Shown in pieces: positions 19,429 to 53,100 of a DNA stretch of 64,000 nucleotides (position 1 is its first letter; every line of letters begins with the position of its first letter). The stretch is from Xylona heveae TC161 (Eukaryota > Ascomycota > Xylonomycetes > Xylonales > Xylonaceae), in contig NW_017264195.1 of the NCBI RefSeq assembly GCF_001619985.1, positions 2,170,001-2,234,000 of the forward strand, read 5' to 3'. The notes beneath the pieces are model-generated. The model saw nothing but the letters and a program-made list of their open reading frames with translations, did not search any database and was not told the DNA's origin. The translations under genes were made by a program, and so were the position numbers.

Positions 19429-20862
<1,434 letters not shown>

Positions 20863-21712
20863 ATTATGAGCAGGATATTTTTCTAAATCGGTGGTCATGT
20901 CGTCACGACTAATGACGCAGCGTGGAAGGATGTGCTTTTATGATCACCCCCTTAGAGGTCTAGCACAGGACGAAAAGTGCCTTTGCAGCTGCGGTATTTT
21001 TTCCTTTTTCTTATAATTTACGATAACATTTTAAGCATCAATGAAATGACTACAAGTTCAAATACATAATCAATGGAGTAATCCTTTCCTGTGAGAATGA
21101 GCCCAAATTGTGATGAAAACATGCGGAACTCCCAGGCTCACTTTTGCCGTAGTTACGGTGAAAGTGGGGTGGATACATGTGCGAAGCGCACTAGGTATAA
21201 TTGGACAATGTCCTGGTGAGCATGAAGTGCTCATTCTAGGTAAAATTTGGATTGCAGTGATTTGACGCACCATTTCTTTCCTGTCGCCAAGAAATATCAG
21301 CTGGTAATATTTCAGGCGCCCATTCGGGCACCGACGAGGGGTTCAGGTTGTTCAGCGGCGGGCCCCGAATAACTCCTGGGCGGGATGATCTGATCCGGTA
21401 ACGGGGGAGCAATCACCCATTGAAGCAGAAGAGGTGGCCTTGGGCGGACTTTACCCTGAACAGAGCGACTAAAAGTAACAGCGCGGCTTGCAATTGGTAG
21501 GTCGCTCGGACGGACTTAGCAAGCAAAAAGTTTAGCGAATCAGTTTGATATTTTTGATCGGCGGAACAACACCCCACCACAATTCGTGACAGTCTGGTTC
21601 AACTCACATCCCACACCCATCGGTTACCTCGATCACAATCGCAGATATCGACCGGGAAGCGAGAGCACCTCTTTCATATCTCCGCAAGAATCCACGCATC
21701 CTTACGACCAAA
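20863..21712. other. Intergenic: enolase 3' region and eIF3j promoter
   Basis: No gene is seen. The last ~170 bp before 21713 hold pyrimidine-rich leader sequence. Confidence 0.5.
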
Positions 21713-40039: not shown

Positions 40040-43000
40040 GGACTAAGATATGGAGGAGCGCCAATCTAACATTAGTTTTAAGAATGAAGAGAGGCGTACG
40101 GCCACGCCAAAGAGGGGAGAAAAGATGGATAGGTGGTTGAAAAGCCCGAATTCTCAGAGCGTCAAGAAGAGTATCCTAAACACTGTAAAGAATATTCAAT
40201 TCTGGTTGGGTTTAGTCCGGCCCAAGACCACGTCGCAGAGCGGTGCTGAGATGCGCTAGAATTCTATCCACCTTCTCCCTTGCTGGGCTTCTAAGTGCAG
40301 AGTTAACGTTTTTGATTGTTGGTTCCAAGCCCGAGTTGAGCGGCACGTTCGGCCCCGTGAGATCCCGACGACTTGCACGCAACAGGATGTCCTTCCAGCA
40401 CCCAAGTTCGTCACGGCGGAGCGGCCATGGAAGAGTAGAGGCCGTGCAGAGTCTTGCAGCTCACTGTGACGAAAGACACCACCAGTGGAGAGGACTAACT
40501 ACCTTGTGACGACAAGAGCGCTTAGCACCAAAAGGAAGGCTAGACAGTGGATTAGTTGCGTCCGGGCGAAATGGTCAATGCGTCAGTATAATGACTCTTG
40601 TTTTGAATTTCAAAGAAAGCAGAGTGGTGTTTGATCGAAGGTGCCGTCAAGAGGTCGGAAGGATGCAACGCGCTGCAGGGGTGAAGAGAAGGAAGAATTC
40701 TTCGATAGCGCGAATATATCAAAGGGTATGGGAGAAGTCCAATTTGCCAGCACGAAAACGCTATAGCAGGTGCACTTGGAGTGCGACAAGCAGAATTAGG
40801 ATACTGCCGGGACAAAAAACCAGTAGTCAGGGGTATTTGGTCAGGCGAGAAGGAATCAGTGGATGAACCTGATTTGAATCTGTCGAGCGTCGAGTTGACG
40901 GGCGAAAACGAGGTGGATTGTGTGGTCAAGGGTGGATTGATCGGTGATGATGCTGGGCGGAAGGGGAGCACAGACGTCAGGCGTTTCGTCTACTCTACGT
41001 TTTCCGATTCAGAAAGGGCCCTGGGGGGAGACGAGCTTCGTTGCCCCCGTTAGGCCTTTTCTCCCTTGGGCAAAGTCCATTAGCTCGGGATGACGCTGCC
41101 TCTTGGGGGGGGGAGGGGGGAAAACAAATTGGTCTCGCCGAAAGCTTAGAGAAGTGCCGATTTGAACCAAACCAGCCCTAACAGCTTACGAGTTGGAGGT
41201 TGTGGGGCATCATCATCATTTTGATTTCTTCCCGATGCGAACCACAATAAGAAATGAACTGACCAACTTACAGTATGTTCAAATGGTGGTTTCAGCGCAA
41301 ACCTTGTTACAGAAGAGATGCCTATTCCCCTCTTTCTGTCTCTCTTCTCTCTCTCTCTCCCTCCCCTAATTGCATGAAACAAGTGGAAAGCTACGCACTG
41401 TGACTTGCAGAATGGGAATCGTAAGAGATGGAACAGTGGTGCCTGATGCGGATGCGGTAACGACAGGTAATGGGTCGATGATATGATGGTGACGTTCGTA
41501 GGTAGCTTTGTTCGCCCTTTTTCTCTGCGCATGAGAACGATAATACGGCCGAACAAGTGAGAGTAACTTACTCTTGCCCTAGAAACTTGCTTGGACTATC
41601 TCCTGGGGCGGCAAAGCGGTTCTGCTCATTAAGGGGAATTGATCGTCAGAGATCTCGATGATCGCAGAAAAACTTTAGGGCTTCTGCTAATACTGATTTC
41701 AAGTTACGAATAGTAGGCCGGGGGGCGTGCAAAAGGTACCGGCGCTGGCTCCGGTGAGGTCCGCACTAGCGATGCCGTTCGGACGAGTCCGCGGGTAGCC
41801 TGAAAGTACCGATACCTACAGCGAGAGATATCATCAAGTACCTTACCTTAGGTAAGGTAACCTTTTGATTATCAGTCTCGCGGGTTAAATCTCACATTTA
41901 CGTCAAAAGGTAATAATGACAACTTCAAGTGATGTAGTGTGTTGTCAACTCCACAAGTACGACAGAAATCCCATGTGCACAATCGATGGGAATCTATCTG
42001 AAGATCTTCGACAACTAAAAGATCTGCATGAATCATTGATATTCCAATTGCCGATATAATGGATCCAGCATTTATGATCGCATTTCGGAAATTCCCCTAA
42101 CAAAAAGCGATATCCGACCTATGTGTAGGTTTTGCCTGAATCGATGACGCCCTGGGTACAAACGGCGTCTATGGTCGACCGTAGTAATTGACGGTCAAGT
42201 TTTTTTGGTATGATTTCTTGTGTCGTCATTGGCTTCTCATCGCGGCACCCCCGATAAATCCCCCGTTCCATGTGGTCATTGACACCCGCTAGTCCTCTAC
42301 AAAGTAACAGGCTGTTTTTGGATGACCCCACCAATTCGTAGACTGGGGGCAAAATATTTACTGCACACTGAGTCAGGTGTGGCGACGGCAACCATAGCCC
42401 AAACTGCTTCTGCACTGCACTGGCGAAGCAACTGCGGACCTTTTGACTGATCGGATTTTCTGATGCAGTTGGACTGGAGAAAAAACACCTTAGCGAGTCG
42501 ATGCCATCTATTTACACGCTTCCTCATTTACCAGCTTGCTTTGCCATTGGTTCCTCACCCCTGCGACTCAGAGCGGACCTGAGTCCGCTCTGAAAAGGAC
42601 CCAGTGCTGCATGCAAGGGAGACGAAAAGTACCATGCGAGTACCTCTACCTCGCTAGTGGGGATGGAGAAAGTACTCAAAATCGAACAGCGAGGAGCAGG
42701 CTACCTAACCTTAGCTACCTGGATCCCTGGGTCCTCGGGTGCAGATACCCTGCCAGAAACGAAACGCTGCGACAACCTACTGCGGAGTTGTGACGAGAAA
42801 CGAATTGGAATTGCCGTTCGGGCGCCTTAAGGTGCGGTCGCATGTAACTTTGTAGATATCAACAGGGCGAGTCACCTATTTAGGTAGATAAGATCTTCTG
42901 AAACAACTCAAAGGTCAGTGCAGATGTGAAATTTGAAAGCGTTCTCTGAAGAAGAAAATCACGAATCCAAGTACGTAAAAATGGACGGATTGTAAAAATT

Positions 43001-43353
43001 TTTTAGTAGCGCCTAAGGATCTCAAGCTACCTCAATTCGAAATACACGCTGGTTTTAAAAAGGAAAACGGACAGCAGATAAAACGCTATCCGTGAAATAT
43101 CTCCACCACACATCTTTTTGCTAGAAAAGAAATAACTTGACTTCCTTAACTCCCTAAGTGCGTCGCCAACGCCTGCGTTGAGGGTAGGATATGCAATCTT
43201 TGCTTGAAGCGAACTGTAAGCATGTAATATAACGAGATAAAGAAAGCGTGATGTAAGATATTCAAAGTTCTGTGTGAAAGGCGCTCTGATATCTAGCGAA
43301 AATGCAAGCTCCGGATGATGATGACGATGATGGACGCCTAGGGCATTGGATAT
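40040..43353. other. Long intergenic region (HMG-box promoter, RAD16 3' side)
   Basis: No protein gene is supported over 3.3 kb. Features seen: a CT-rich tract near 41327-41368, a GC-rich segment with small hairpins near 41715-41810, and a perfect 9-bp inverted repeat around ACCTTACC-TTA-GGTAAGGT (41839-41859). A long leader for the HMG-box gene or a noncoding transcript would fit, but nothing in the sequence proves one. Confidence 0.5.
41839..41859. repeat. Short inverted repeat TACCTTACC-TTA-GGTAAGGTA
   Basis: A 9-bp perfect stem with a 3-base spacer. The same ACCTTACC/GGTAAGGT-like motif recurs at other noncoding places in the window (near 27087, 42701 and 58001). Confidence 0.75.
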
Positions 43354-46300
43354 TTACGTTCCCCGGAAGAGGAATTGCATATCCTCAGGAGTTAGTTTTT
43401 CCAACGCAACATCATCATTGTTTATGGTGCCGTTAATCATGGCGGCTTTCTTCTCTTGCAGCATGACCATACGAGACTCCACCGAGTCCTCGATGCAAAG
43501 TCGAGTAATGACACATGGTCGTTTTTGGCCGATTCTATGGCAACGGTCGGCGCTTTGCCATTCTGCTGCTGGGTTCCACCATCTTGTCTTGTGCGTTAGA
43601 CGTAGTTGATAAAAAAAAGCCAAAGTGGATAGAACTCACGGATCGACAATGAAAACACGAGATGCTTCAGTCAAGTTAAGCGCCACTCCTCCGGCTTTAA
43701 GAGACACAAGGAATACCTCAACATCGGTATTCTTCATGAAATATTCGATTGATCTCTGCCGTTGGGTTGGACTCATACTTCCGTCAAGCATGACTGTATT
43801 GAATCCTGCTCGTCTAAGTCGCCATTCTACCAACTGAAGCATCGACGTAAATTGAGAGAATACTATCGATTTATGCGTCTGCTTCTTGCTGCGAAGCTTG
43901 TAAAGGTCATAAACAAGCATTTCAATCTTCGTCGAGGAAGTCCAGTCTTCCATTTTGATACGGTTGATGATAGAGTTTTTCTTGATGTTCTCCTCATCTT
44001 GTTCAATATCGGGCTACACTACATTAGAAATCCTGAAATCAAGCAATGCAATGCACAGACTTACTTGGTCAAAGTCAATAGATAATGGCTTGATGAATGG
44101 TCAGCCCAGTCAAAGAAGAGAGATATTGACCCAAGTGACTTACAATATGACATCGCGGGCAATCGGGCTCGGCCCCAACAGTCCCTTCAAAAGATCTGAC
44201 GTAATCCTTCGCACAGCGGCGGCAAAACTCATGATGGCAACGTGAGCGAATGGCTTCTTCTGCAGGCTCGTCGCAGATGCTGCAGACAAGAACGTTTTGA
44301 CCACCTTCAGCGTGTTTCCTGAGAATCAAATCTGGATGGTTCGCCACTTGGCGCATCTGCATGATCAGACCGAAGATATTGGCATCTTGGTAATACTGTC
44401 AGCACCGTCATAAGAAAGACAATATATCCGTCCAAGATTACTTACAGTTGTTTAGCATGACACCACGAGACACGTAAGTGTCGAACTGGCGGGTACTGTT
44501 TGTCATGATGCTAGTAGAGAAGTCCCTTTCAATATCCCCGAAGAACTCATTATGAATCACAACTTCCTTTGGCGGCAACTCCCTAGTCAATCAAATTTAG
44601 CAATGCCGTAATTTACGTTTGCAAGCACGATAGCAGCGACGGTTGACTTACATGGAAGCAGTGTGATCTCGTTTCACCCGTCTCAACATTATCCTATCCG
44701 TGATGAGACGTAGCTTATTGAAAGCCTGTCGTCTTAGAGCCTGATTCTCCCCTTGAGTAATAGGCCCTAAGATCTCTTGGTTGAAGACTGAAACGTGGTC
44801 GAAACCTCTATGACGGCAATGAGTGCACTTTTTATCCGGTGTCAAAGACCAATGCAATTCTTTGCAGCTGCAAGACTTGCAGAAATAGCACGCAAAGGGT
44901 TTGACCTCTAGGAAACGCAGAAGCGAAAAGAACTCTCCGATACGATTTTGCACTGGAGTTCCCGAAAGACACCATTTATAGTCGCCTTTCAAGGCAAAAC
45001 AGGCTCTGGCCACACTCGTGGTCCGAGTCTTTTAAGTGTCAATTAGCATTTTGTATTCATGTATTGGTCCCACACCAGTGAAAAAGCCACTCACTTTGAT
45101 ATTGTGCGCCTCATCAAGGATCAAACGATGATAGTGTATCGAATGAATGACGCTGAGCGAAGTATTAGCTATTTGTACAAGTATCACTTGGTAAGTCTGA
45201 ATACCTGTCCTCTTTGACTAATCCGTTTCCACGAGCCCAGCCTTTGATCTCTTTCCGATGGATTGACTCAAGGCCGGAGTCTAATCGTTGTTAGCGCCAC
45301 CAGACTGTAGGATTCACGGGCAGGACGTACATGAAATCATAATAACATCGAATTTCTTTGTACAAAGTTAGTCACATCCAGATTTTACAGCTCCGAATAA
45401 CTTACCAAGAGTTCCTTTCGAGTGAGGTGCTTTATCTTTGGATTGGTGTTGTGATAAACAAGGATCTTTAATTTTCCGTCGGTATACTCATTGACTTCAT
45501 TTTGCCACTTAAGGAAAGATTGTCAGCTTATTGAGCATAAAGGATCAAGCCGTCAAGGTACCAACCTGCATCAGAGCAACAGGGGGCACTACGACCAAAG
45601 TTGGCGTCTTTGCAGGATAATCAGACATGATAAGAGAGACAGCTTGAATAGTTTTGCCCATTCCCATCTCGTCTCCTAATAACCCTCCTTTCCACTGGGT
45701 CTTTTCCTGCTTTGTCATCCAATTCAGACCTTCAAGTTGAAAAGATTTCAAAGGTCGATTGATGGATTCTGGTTGCTTGGCGAGCGCTGCAGGAATTCTG
45801 GGAGTATTGCTGAGGTCGTCCCACATAGTTATGATCTCGGGATGAGCAGTCTCCAGCTTTAGTCGCTCTCTTTCGGCTCTTGTCATGGGGCGCCGTCCCC
45901 TTCGCGACGGTGCCGCACGGCGACGCGCGGGTGACGGATTCGATAACTCGGAGTCATCATTGGCCTGTCGAAGTGCTAGGTTTCTAGCAAGTTTAAAATC
46001 ATCTTCGGACGCAGTTTCCTCGTCTTCGAATTCGGATTCTTGCAGCGAGAGCAAATCGGAATCGGGTTCACTCAACGCAGATTCCTCACTGTCGAGAATC
46101 TCTGAGTCCTTTGCAACCCTGGGACGTTTTATATCTCTGTTGTTTGAGGAGCGTAGGGTGGAAAGTCTCTTAGGGACTTTGCGCTGTGATCCGCTACTTG
46201 GATGTGCCTTAATTCTCCGCTTCGTGGCAATGGTTGCCGCGGACGGAAAATCTGACTCCTGAAAGTCCTCGTCATCCTCATCATCATCATCTTCTTCTTC

Positions 46301-47043
46301 ACCATATTCGTCATCATCGTCGTTCTCCGAATCCTCAATCTCAATGTAAGCCGACTGGCCAGCGCCTGAATATTCTTCGTTCTGCAGTTTTCGAGCAAGA
46401 ATCTCATCTTGCGTTATGCTCGTATCATCGACCTCGTCTTCTTCATCGGTCAGTTCGGACCAAGCCCTCTTTCCTTTCTGACGGCCCAAAGAAAAGTTAC
46501 TATCTCGAAGTTGCCGAGCACGATCTGCAGCATTCACACGGGACGTCTGGGTAATTATCTTTGCTTTGCTCGATTGCAGTGGTTCTCGGGGGGTCATGGT
46601 CGTACTCGTGGCTGGGGTTTCATATTCGCTATTTGGCTCTTCTGCGTCTGTTGCCCGAATCGATGATGATGAGGTTGGGCTCCCTGTCTGCAAAGAAAGA
46701 CCATTGCTAAGTGCATCCGTCGAAAATCGACGTTTACGAGGAATATTGACAGATTTGAGGAACTTTGGTGTGGCGCTGCGTAGAGTAGAAATCCCGTCGC
46801 TATTGATCTCCATGTCTGCATCAGAGAACCCAGAAGGAGGACCATCAGCTTGGCCCAGGGACGAAGCTGACGGCATGGAGGCCTTTCTAATTCTGGCTGC
46901 TGTGAAGTTTGTTAACGAGAAGGGTCTACGAAGAGATGAAGCGTTCCACGATAGAGTGACGACGCAAGAATGGATTCACAGAACTTACAGGATCGCCGTA
47001 TGGGCATACTTTCTTCCATTGGCAGCGGTTTCATTCTGACCAT
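43354..47043 (-). CDS. RAD16: DNA repair SNF2 ATPase with RING finger, Rad16
   Basis: Twelve exons: 47043-46989, 46899-45566, 45507-45406, 45355-45331, 45280-45205, 45152-45095, 45028-44652, 44582-44446, 44385-44144, 44088-44065, 44013-43640 and 43582-43354, giving 1010 residues. An acidic, disordered N-terminal third is followed by the SNF2 core: Walker [10 protein letters not shown] (about 427), DEAH box [10 protein letters not shown], and [15 protein letters not shown]3HC4 RING finger sits between the lobes ([20 protein letters not shown]). The second lobe has [12 protein letters not shown] and [14 protein letters not shown] further Cys-rich patch lies before the RING ([10 protein letters not shown]). 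With Rad7 it forms the ubiquitin-ligase/translocase complex for repair of silent DNA. The first exon is inferred from GTAAGTT and TTCACAG signals; otherwise translation would start at 46876. Confidence 0.94.
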
Positions 47044-47976
47044 AACAGCGGCGAATTCAGGTTCCTATCTTGATCTGAATTGGGTCTGAACTGCCTTCAG
47101 CAATAATCGCAGCCGGAGGACGTAAAACGTCTTTCAATTGACAATCGGGCGGCGAAGGACAGAAGGGCCGTCACTTTCCAAGAAGACGCCGGGGAATCTT
47201 CGATAACCGAAGCTTTCGCCCCGGTCAAGCGGGCGCTTGAATTAACTAGGCACCAATGAGCTAAAATCTCTGGAGCGCTCGGCAAGGGGAACCAGGAGAA
47301 GTTAATGATGACTTTGCGACAGTGAATGGATGAACAGATATGGCAAAGGGCAGAAAAAAGATTTTGGACAAGTGGATTATTCGTGGCAGGAAGTTTTACA
47401 ATCCCTAATATTCTTGATAAAGAACCCAGCTACTGTTAACTAGTCTCACAATTTTCTATGGCAGTCGTTCCTGCATCTATGACATAGATAAATTTGTGTT
47501 CGTAGGGCCATTATGACAAGCTCCTTTAAAATGCATAGCTGTTCACCTTTTAACATATGAAGGTAGAACCAATTCTTTCTGTTTCTTTTACCCGTCACTG
47601 GCGTCTGCACAGATGAAATATTGAGATTGGAACCCTTTCTTTGGTCCTTCTCTTATCGCCACTGGCGCGTAGGGCACGCGATGACAGACTCGCGCTAGAG
47701 AAATGCATTAGAGCGATTATAGCTTAGCCGAGGCGCCCTCTTTGCCCCCCTGCAGCTAACCGAATATGAACCCCCATTACTTCATCTGGTTCTAGACTCG
47801 GTATCGATAGGCAGCAACTAGGCCTCAATAATTCACCTGATCTCAGTTGCTGAATAGATCGTCAATTTTATTATCTGTCTCATCAAAACACCCGGGAGAA
47901 TTTCTGCTATCCAATATTGCAGTCATCACACATTTCTCACAATTCTATGGGCATCGAATAGCCAAAGCCGGTCATC
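47044..47976. promoter_or_regulatory. Divergent RAD16-RAD7 promoter region
   Basis: 933 bp separate the two start codons. The region has no other gene and must carry the promoters of both repair genes. I saw no perfect MCB-type ACGCGT site. Confidence 0.7.
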
Positions 47977-50120
47977 ATGTAAGCTCGTTTTGTTCAGGCT
48001 CGTCATTTTCTGACAAGATCCTCTAATTCTCTGATCGTAGGTCTAATCGACGGGCAACAAATAACCGCATCCGCGGGCCGTGAGTGGTTTATCTTAGAAT
48101 TCTTGGCCTCCAATAGCTTACAAGTGATGATGATTGTAGTCAGTCTGCTCTTACGGATTTTTTGGCAGTATGTATCACAATCCAATGCAATCCCGAATAT
48201 TTCGTCTTACTAGATTGGCCTATGATCTTATACTGATTTCCATTCTTCTAGTCCAACAACATCTCCGCTGCTCAGATTCGAACCGATTACGAGAGACGTC
48301 GCAGGGAGGCACAATCTCGGATCAACTCTGAGAGACCTGCAGAAGATTCGGCAGCAGAAGTTGAAACGCAGCAAACAGCGACGTCCACGGAGAATTCTGA
48401 ACAGAGAAAGAAGCGTAAAAGGCAAGAAGAAAATGCTATAGCCAAGATCAAAAAAAACAAGAACAAGAACAACAAAAATAAACGCCGCCAGCGCTTCGCT
48501 GTGGACTCAGAGAGCGATGAAGAAGACGCTACATGGGATTTGTACGCCAAGTCAAAACCATTGCCAGGGCAACTGGAAAATTGCGAAATTTGCAATAAAC
48601 GCTTCACTGTTACGGCTTACAGCAAGACAGGTCCCGATGGAGGGCTACTCTGTGCTAAGTGTTCTAGAGAATTAGAAGCAGAGGAGAAGAAGGACAAACC
48701 CAAGAAAAAATCTGGCGCTCGTGAAAGGCGAAGACAAGTACAGAGCAGACTTCTTGATGGCATTGTTTCGCTCGGAGCGAAAAATTTGCAAGAACTTTGC
48801 GTGGAGGTAAGTTTTTCTTGCTGAATCAATTGAAGACTCTTGAACCAGACACCTTTTCTGATATGTTTCATAGAAAGTCGCAGATAATATCAACGACGTC
48901 GACGAATTTGGAGATCTCCCTCAAACCCTACTAGACAGACTGAGCCAAATACTGTCAAAGAAACGCGTCATAACATCGCGCACCTTGGACTTGTTCCTGC
49001 GGCCGGATTTAGATAAAGTAGCAATTTACGACGCTGGCAGTGAGTCTTTCCAGAATTAAAGCCATTCGGGGTCACCCATTACTGACGATATAAAGAACTC
49101 GAATCCCATGACTTTGTCAAGATCTTTGCTGTAATTCCAAACCTACGACATCTTCTCCTCCTCCACGCAGGGCAGTTTAAGGATGAAGTGATGGAATATA
49201 TGCTCGAACGGCAGGTGCCAATCAAGAGCCTTCAGCTTGAGGCAGCCAATCTCATCTCGAACCGCATGTGGCACGAGCTGTTTCGACGAGCAGGAGGATC
49301 TCTTGAAGCTCTTAAACTAGCCTGGCTTGATTCCTCTTTCAATGACGAATGCGTTCAAGTCTTGGCTGACAACTGTCCTAATCTCAAACGACTCAAGCTG
49401 AGAAAATGCTTCCACCTTGATGAGAACGCATTGGTCTCGATTGGAAAGCTATCAAACCTTGAGCACCTCTCTCTGCAGTTCTCAGGTCAGGTTGAGGGAC
49501 AGCTTGTGACTGATCTAGTCAATTCAGTCGGGCAGAAATTGTTCACACTATCGTTGACAAAATTTGAAAACGCCGACGATGCAGTACTTGCCGCCATCCA
49601 TGCTAGTTGTCGACATCTTCGAAAGTTCCGCTTCTCCGAAAATGACCTCTGCACTGATGCTGCGTATGAGCAACTCTTCACTGATTGGGTCAATCCGGGC
49701 TTGGTGTTTGCGGACTTCTCTAGCACTCGCGATCTGGACTACTCCAACCCCGATGGACCAGATGAGCCAGTTGGACTAGCTTCCAAAGGATTCGCCGCCC
49801 TCATGAAGCATTCCGGCAGCAGCCTCGAACGCTTAGATATTTCCTCTTGCCGTCATATCGCGCATTCGACCTTTTGCGAAGTCTTTGACGGTATCAAGAT
49901 CTACCCTAATTTGCGCGAACTGAACCTTTCATTCATCCCTCGCGTAGACACTCTAGTTGTTGCAGCAATATTCAAGAGCTGTCCTCAGCTGCAGAAGGTC
50001 GTTGCCTTCTCCTGCTTTGGAATCAGGGACGTCATTGTACCGCCCAATGTTGCCTTGATTGGCATTCCCAATGCGCAGGAGAATATCATGATTAATGCCG
50101 ATGCACTGGCCTACTACTAA
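47977..50120 (+). CDS. RAD7: DNA repair protein Rad7 (leucine-rich repeats)
   Basis: Six exons: 47977-47978, 48041-48079, 48140-48167, 48252-48806, 48874-49039 and 49096-50120, giving 604 residues. The start is the fungal Rad7 pattern MSNRRATNNRIRGPQSALTD, continuing FLASNNISAAQIRTDYERR. A basic Lys/Asn-rich linker and a four-cysteine zinc site follow (CEICNKRF, then CAKC). Next come LLDGIVSLGAKNLQELCVEKVADN, AGKLESHDFVKIFAVIPNLR and a string of leucine-rich repeats (CPNLKRLKLRKCFHLDENAL). It partners Rad16 in global-genome nucleotide excision repair. The start codon is split: AT is in exon 1 and G in exon 2. Exons 2 and 3 are only 39 and 28 nt, and both restore conserved residues. Confidence 0.9.
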
Positions 50121-53100
50121 AAAGACGCACGTCAGCCTGGAGCTATTACGCTACTTGCGCATTGCGGCAAACCAAAAGTGCGCGTTTACTGCTCTTTGCT
50201 CATGTTGCTGTCAGCTTGGCGTTTGTTGAGAATGGTACGTACTGGATTTAATGGTGGATTTGCGAGGAGTTGCGATCTACATTTCATGTGATGCTGTCTC
50301 TCCACATTTGGATTGCGCGGCGCTTTCAAAGTGCACTGGATGGGGTCCATGGTGGGTTGGCGTTACCTTGGAGCAAGCAGGCTTGTACCTTAGTTAGCCT
50401 ACGGAGCACTTATAGCTACCTTATTCTATCAATTGTGTCCTTGATCGGACGCTTTAGCGAACAATGTACTCCCGTACAACCGATCGATTTACTTTCATAT
50501 GCGTAGTCGTCACCCATTCATTCCTGTCTGTAAAAGCGAAATCGCGTAAGGTAGAGCGATTGAAGAATTTCACCACCTGTGCTTAGCTGCTGTTTTTGCG
50601 AGGGCATCAGAGATGCTAAGAGATGTCGCTCGCCGCCACTCGAACGGATTCAATGGGCAAAGGTACAAAGTAAACAAATAATATGGAGTAAGAGGTTGTT
50701 GGAATTAGCCGGATCTCCCTCCCTCTAGTGCGGATCAGTTTTGGGGTTGAGTTAACTTAGTCATGGTTCTGCCTGGCCTAAGAGAAGGAATGACGTGATA
50801 TTTGTCACTCATCAGGACGCCCATCTCAGGGGGTTTTGATGGGTGAATCAACCATTAGATCCATTTAATGCTAGCGATGTGGTTATTACATCCGAATTAA
50901 GCCCGACAGGACACCATGCAAAGTGATGAATAACTATTTTCTTCTCTTCTCCCCCTTGTTCGTTGGACAGCAAAAGGTTTCCAAGGAGATTGGAGAAAGC
51001 GCGCCATTAAATATAATGGTAATATGAGACCATAATATACCTCCGAATTTAGGCATCTGCAGCCGAACAATCTCGAAAAGAATGCAACTAGGCTGGTCCC
51101 GCCTTCTACTCGTTGTACTCCATGAGAAACGGATCGGTCGAAGGAACCTTCTACCTAGTCTTCCAGAGGCGGTTGATCGCAGCGCACTTGTGAGACTCTG
51201 GATTTTTGCACGTGCTCTCACAAAGGAGTGGGACTTGTGGATGGCTTTGTACCTTGACCTAGAAAATCATCAGATCCCTTGTCTTTATTACCTAAGGTCA
51301 TTTGCATTGTTGTTCATTGTTTGTACTGTGGAGATTGTTCTCCCTCTTTTGCAGCCAAGCTTTTGCCCAGCCGGTACCCAATTATTGGCAAAAGATTCAA
51401 CAAATCGATGTACATAGACCTACTAAACAGGTAGAGACGTCGCTACCTGGGCTTTTGGTTGGATTTGCTATTCGCGACCTTATGTCTGTCAGACTTTGGC
51501 TCCGGTTCCCCGATGGCGCCTTGGGCCAGGAACCAAACGAAACTGTTTTGGGCCAACCATCGAAGCTTGTGGCCGAATCCCCTGGTGAACAAACTGCAGC
51601 GTCGAAATTCCCATGGAACCGCAACCAGCCACTCAATATTTTTACTTTTCTCCTCCCCCACAAGCCCCAATTGCCGACCTCTGCGGGCCGCTGCGGTGGC
51701 TTTTCTTTTGCTTTCCTTCTGTGCTTACTTGTAAGCTTGCCTCAGTTTTCCCTCGTCTGATTTCTTTTTTGTGGCTGGGGTGGCAAGTCGCCATTATTTA
51801 CGTTTGTGTCGATATTTTTGCTGGGCGAAAGAATCGGTGAGCAGGAGCGGAGAACCCCAGCGAAGAAGCGGCAACATGGAAATGGTGCCGCGATGCTCGA
51901 GGCCGCGTGCGCCGGGATAGCGCTTGTGCGATGCTTGCTGTAGTGCAACATGTTATCGATAGTCGGTGCAGAACCACAAGAGCAAGGCTGTCAAGTGTGA
52001 AAAGTCATCTTTAATGATGACGATGAAAAGAGTGACGACGAGGTCGAACAATGATGGCGACAAACACATGGCAGGGTATCCAATGCATAACTTTAGGTAG
52101 AGTACTCTGTACGAAGTATAGTATGGTAATCAAACAGAGATGCGGCTTTACAGTTCTTGTGCCTTTTGTTACTCAACCTGCCATGTGCAGGATCTTCCCT
52201 TACCCCGGGGTTTGTCCTACGCGTCCAGGACGGATAATGTCCCGATGGAAAAGGAAAAGCCAAAGGATGATCGAACCAGACCATGATGATGATTCTTCAA
52301 AAGGCGAGGCAAGGTCCAGCGCTGATCCTGCCAACCCAGCCATTGAAGGGCCTTTTTCTGGTCCGATCGGTTCGAGTCCCCTGGCGGAGCCGCCGTTAGT
52401 TCCATGCTATTACATCTGTACGAGTAGAGTAGTATCCTCCGTCCGTAGTGGGGACCACTCCTGCTGGGAAAACTAGCCTTACTAGACGAGTAATAAATGC
52501 CCAAACTGTGCATCAAAATACGAGCCCATGGGAACGTCTTTTTCTCAAGACTTTCTTAACACGAAGCCGGCTAGCGCCCCCGCTGAGCGCTGATGTTTCC
52601 GTTCAACGGACCAAACAACGTTCATTCTCGGGCCCTCGGTCGTCTCTAAGCAGAACCACCAAAACTGACCGAAACGAAACATTCCTGGGCCACAACCACC
52701 CCCCCCGAAACGTTGCTGGGTTTCCCATCCAAGCAGTCCTGTCTTTCCTGGCTGGCTGACTGAACGACTGGATAGGACTGATTTGCTTTCCTTTCCTCTC
52801 GTCAACGACCTACCTACCTACCTACCTACCTACCTACCTAGGACTGCTGGCCGCTTGGTCACCACCACTTGCCGACTTCCATTTTTCACCCATTTCCACT
52901 TCTTTCCCACTCTCACACACGCCTTCTCTGTGTACGTGCGGCCCATTGTGATCTTGGGGACCTTTGCCGCCTTTCTTTGCAGATGTGCCGGTAAGCGTGT
53001 CCAGAATTTACAGCCTTCTTCCTGTCTCGGTGGCGCTCGGAATGTTGTGTGGTGTTTGCGTGCGTTGTGAGTCGCTATAATTGGCACGGGCGCGGATCTG

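Follow-up and report, generated by a model that had tools for sequence, protein, structure and literature searches.

The divergent RAD16–RAD7 gene pair of Xylona heveae, a conserved neighbour pair of ascomycetes

In the genome of the ascomycete Xylona heveae TC161, the DNA repair genes RAD16 and RAD7 are adjacent, lie on opposite strands and have start codons less than 1 kb apart. The best overall explanation, to which we assign a probability of about 0.88, is that this locus is an ordinary ascomycete RAD16–RAD7 divergent pair made up of two intact head-to-head genes, for which we infer shared control and selection. The head-to-head linkage is already in print as a conserved neighbour pair and is ordinary in that sense. 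A preliminary description of the window, by which we mean the whole 64,000-nucleotide stretch of DNA that was analysed, had named the two genes and their divergent orientation from the letters alone. Both the identities and the orientation are borne out by rebuilt exon models, Pfam searches and a match of the RAD7 protein to a solved structure.

Results

The RAD16 coding region extends over 43354..47034 on the minus strand. Its spliced open frame encodes 1006 aa in 12 exons (47034–46989, 46896–45566, 45507–45406, 45355–45331, 45280–45205, 45152–45095, 45028–44652, 44582–44446, 44385–44144, 44088–44065, 44013–43640 and 43582–43354), and the exon-by-exon rebuild yielded one uninterrupted frame with 11 GT...AG introns and a stop at 43354. 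Short introns are a general feature of the genes in the window. Translation from another in-frame ATG, at 47043, would lengthen the protein by three residues, from the 1006 aa counted from 47034 to 1009 aa. On the opposite strand, a 185-aa stop-to-stop frame (46482–47039, plus strand) runs antisense to the 5' exons of RAD16.

Pfam assigns to the predicted RAD16 protein an SNF2-rel_dom domain (6.4e-59, residues 401–592), a zf-C3HC4 RING (7.2e-6, residues 752–796) and a Helicase_C domain (4.3e-23, residues 843–949). The RING thus precedes Helicase_C in an SNF2 ATPase, as required of Rad16. HIRAN is absent from the Pfam matches of this protein, and the control gene L006, another SNF2-type gene of the same genome, gives HIRAN with an E-value of 3.4e-21. 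The protein also carries a cysteine-rich insert of the form C..C.C...C..C, which we take to be typical of Rad16, and this insert was found in none of the four best-scoring other SNF2 loci when the ten longest frames of each were inspected. Its closest solved structure is that of a relative, RAD5 (6l8n, E 2.4e-65), and no Rad16 chain appears among the best 60 of its 87 structure matches. We use the name Rad16 for the predicted protein, and RAD16 for the minus-strand gene, because of the domains, the missing HIRAN, the cysteine-rich insert and the Rad7 neighbour taken together.

The genome comprises 24.3 Mb in 17 contigs. Elsewhere in it, the RAD16 protein matches other SNF2 genes, at 45% identity or less. 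The four SNF2-type loci mentioned above are 36–44% identical to RAD16 in their C-terminal part and are situated at C6:435800–439600 (L005), C1:2468000–2471900 (L006), C4:941500–945600 (L007) and C8:333500–337200 (L008). L006 combines SNF2 with HIRAN, and is therefore likely, from its predicted domains, to be the Rad5 of this genome. HIRAN has been described for Rad5; where the same source turns to the domains found in Rad16, its wording is ambiguous as to HIRAN (PMC11205155).

The RAD7 coding region occupies 47977..50120 on the plus strand and forms a spliced open frame of 604 aa in six exons (47977–47978, 48041–48079, 48140–48167, 48252–48806, 48874–49039 and 49096–50120), all five introns being GT...AG. 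The predicted protein contains the Rhp7 treble clef (Pfam zf_Tbcl_Rhp7, PF23550) with an E-value of 1.4e-19 and 69.7 bits against a cut-off of 27. Among solved structures, phmmer ranks 5zb2_A first, an entry titled "DNA repair protein RAD7" and presumably from yeast, with an E-value of 2.7e-15 over residues 218–586 of the protein and 40–399 of the chain. F-box LRR structures rank behind it, at 5.6e-9 and weaker. The preliminary description had raised the prospect of a better Rad7 elsewhere in this genome, and none was found: the sole genomic match to PF23550 is at this locus. The other three of the six own-genome matches of the RAD7 protein, obtained with a 605-aa version as the query, are weak, the best having an E-value of 3.7e-4. 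That 605-aa model contained a last intron without an AG end and was replaced by the 604-aa model; the Pfam and structure outcomes of the two are the same, with a slightly better RAD7 match for 604 aa. The predicted product, a treble-clef/LRR protein, clearly identifies the plus-strand gene as RAD7.

The RAD7 start codon appears to be split by an intron. In the gene model, intron 1 (47979..48040, plus strand, 62 nt) divides the codon as AT|G, with the donor GTAAGC and the acceptor TAG, and branch-like sites are present 31 nt (CTGAC) and 18 nt (CTAAT) from its 3' end. When the frame of exon 2 is read upstream without splicing, no ATG occurs before a TAA is reached at 48024, and the next Met after the start is residue 296. 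Since intron 1 splits the ATG, unspliced RNA would read ATG–TAA. A literature search on start codons split by introns returned nothing relevant, as judged by titles.

The gap between the two start codons comprises 933 bp (47044..47976) and is a candidate shared promoter region, which would include the 5' untranslated regions of both genes. The distance of 933 bp given in the preliminary description is exact for the RAD16 ATG at 47043, and becomes 942 bp from the ATG at 47034. The 942-bp version has a G+C content of 0.454, and the longest ATG-started ORF entirely within the gap is 37 aa. Rfam at gathering thresholds gave no match over 43000–51000. Scanning the gap with a sigma-70 promoter model, which does not apply to fungi, returned two sites against 1.6 expected. 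A shared promoter is plausible, and a pair of independent promoters placed back to back is equally possible.

Discussion

The arrangement seen in Xylona heveae corresponds to a published one. Davila Lopez et al. (2010) compared 64 eukaryotes for conserved gene pairs, and reported that fungal pairs are best conserved at spacings of 100–1000 nt, the divergent ones above all (PMC2871058). In Table 1 of that survey, the row "DNA repair protein RAD16 / DNA repair protein RAD7" lists 14 organisms and 14 pairs, marked Fp and Ft, with a GO similarity (GS2) of 0.91, and only two listed rows score higher, both at 1.00. The running text of the survey names Pezizomycotina only, and the table row adds Taphrinomycotina. 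The table caption is silent on orientation, and the section to which it belongs deals with divergently transcribed pairs. The published pair and that of Xylona heveae thus consist of the same two genes, and we know of no difference between them. In Fusarium graminearum, RAD16 and RAD7, so named by KEGG, are FGSG_05904 and FGSG_05905 (PMC10581207). These consecutive tags indicate that the genes adjoin there as in Xylona heveae; their orientation is unstated in the part of the source that lists them. The preliminary description had proposed looking for conserved linkage in Pezizomycotina, which therefore exists in print in the 14 species of the survey and in Fusarium; its further suggestion of a lineage trait was too narrow, given that the published row spans both Pezizomycotina and Taphrinomycotina. 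A literature search on Aspergillus and Neurospora yielded no further Pezizomycotina locus tags for the pair.

Lombaerts and colleagues are said to have reported in 1999 that rhp7 and rhp16 of Schizosaccharomyces pombe lie close together, are transcribed in opposite directions and are both induced by UV. The rhp16–rhp7 arrangement would resemble the present one in being nearby and oppositely transcribed. The linkage in Schizosaccharomyces pombe is unstated in the relevant passages of two other papers (PMC10454142 and PMC2596136). With Taphrinomycotina in the published row, it is probable that the pair dates back to the ancestor of Ascomycota and that budding yeast has lost it. In Saccharomyces cerevisiae, RAD7 and RAD16 are located on different chromosomes, although their products are partners of one GG-NER complex.

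The function of the two proteins suggests why the pair may have been retained. According to a 2024 paper, yeast Rad7 and Rad16 make up the complex that binds damage in global-genome nucleotide excision repair, and with Elc1–Cul3 they belong to a ubiquitin ligase that acts on Rad4 (PMC11205155). The gap of about 0.9 kb may hold the promoters of both genes and place them under shared damage-responsive control. Selection for a balanced, co-induced supply of two complex partners would then have kept the pair together since an early ascomycete ancestor, with a later loss of the link in the budding yeast lineage.

It is possible, at a probability that we would put somewhat short of even, that the two genes have simply stayed neighbours by descent and share no control. 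The pair would then be old, each gene would have its own promoter, and the order would have been kept since a break between divergent genes that lie so close carries a cost. Many conserved pairs in Table 1 of the survey for which both genes have GO terms show low GO similarity, for example 0.09 to 0.25, which is consistent with such passive retention, but the RAD16/RAD7 value is among the highest listed and argues against it (PMC2871058). Expression in Fusarium also speaks for shared control: one of 16 co-expression modules, Greenyellow, correlates positively with H2O2, and its 16 KEGG-annotated hub genes include RAD16 as well as RAD7 (PMC10581207). The same module includes many other repair genes, and shared membership therefore needs no shared promoter. 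The deletions of Fusarium RAD16 and RAD7 are not among the three mutants with raised H2O2 sensitivity in that study.

Co-induction in Cryptococcus lends the separate-promoter alternative further support. The tags of Cryptococcus neoformans RAD7 (CNAG_05198) and RAD16 (CNAG_02512) are non-consecutive (PMC6282196), as are those of Ustilago maydis rad7 (UMAG_00657) and rad16 (UMAG_03263) (PMC10532341); we read the genes as unlinked in both of these basidiomycetes. In a four-column table, Cryptococcus neoformans RAD7 has values of 1.27, 5.49, 7.27 and 0.95 and RAD16 values of 1.97, 4.84, 8.86 and 1.06, and the two genes thus rise in the same two of the four columns (PMC6282196). Both are also reported to be induced by H2O2 (PMC3557267) and by hydroxyurea (PMC8689522), and in Saccharomyces cerevisiae RAD7 and RAD16 are both reported to be up after MMS (PMC9317300). 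Co-induction without apparent linkage in Cryptococcus, together with that in Saccharomyces cerevisiae, indicates that linkage is unnecessary for co-induction. The contrary case is Ustilago maydis, with its non-consecutive tags, where rad7 rises without rad16 in one setting (PMC10532341).

The split start codon allows a further proposal, which we consider unlikely, namely that RAD7 output is gated by splicing. Removal of intron 1 would then set the level of Rad7 and hence the assembly of the complex. If this removal changes after DNA damage, the pair could be co-transcribed from the gap with Rad7 being set by splicing.

Misidentification of the genes is a very improbable alternative. In that case, the SNF2/RING gene would be either Rad5 or another paralog resembling Rad16, and the product of the LRR gene would be a different, F-box-like LRR protein. 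The RAD5 structure as best match, the missing Rad16 chain among the best 60 matches and the secondary matches of the LRR part to F-box LRR proteins would fit such an error, as would the statement of the 2024 paper that filamentous ascomycetes harbouring Rad16A and Rad16B yielded no homolog of the yeast Rad7 protein (PMC11205155). Against it stand the Rhp7 treble clef of the LRR protein and its best match, which is RAD7. In addition, HIRAN resides in L006 and not in the SNF2/RING protein beside RAD7, and the Rad16-type insert is present in the latter and in none of the frames inspected at the four other loci. Adjacency by chance, or as a trait of this lineage only, is scarcely credible: the non-consecutive basidiomycete tags would agree with it, but the pair recurs in the 14 species from two subphyla and in the consecutive Fusarium tags (PMC2871058, PMC10581207), and we estimate that, in a genome of some thousands of genes, two specified ones would be adjacent by luck on the order of one time in thousands.

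Taking the locus as the conserved RAD16–RAD7 pair, it bears on the published absence of Rad7. A clear Rad7 beside RAD16 speaks against the absence statement of the 2024 paper, if Xylona heveae has two Rad16 paralogs (PMC11205155). Its conclusion that Rad7 is dispensed with in the action of Rad16 may need correction, and the RAD16 locus itself offers a place to recheck it. In Fusarium, too, a KEGG-assigned RAD7 adjoins RAD16, to be set against the same absence statement (PMC10581207, PMC11205155). The present locus adds one more genome to those with the published conserved pair, and illustrates how adjacency can lead to a partner that is poorly conserved.

Elsewhere in the window, a 353-aa stop-to-stop frame at 19876–20937 on the minus strand runs antisense to a 315-aa frame at 19915–20862 on the plus strand, which by eye resembles enolase. 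This long antisense frame is probably an effect of codon bias.
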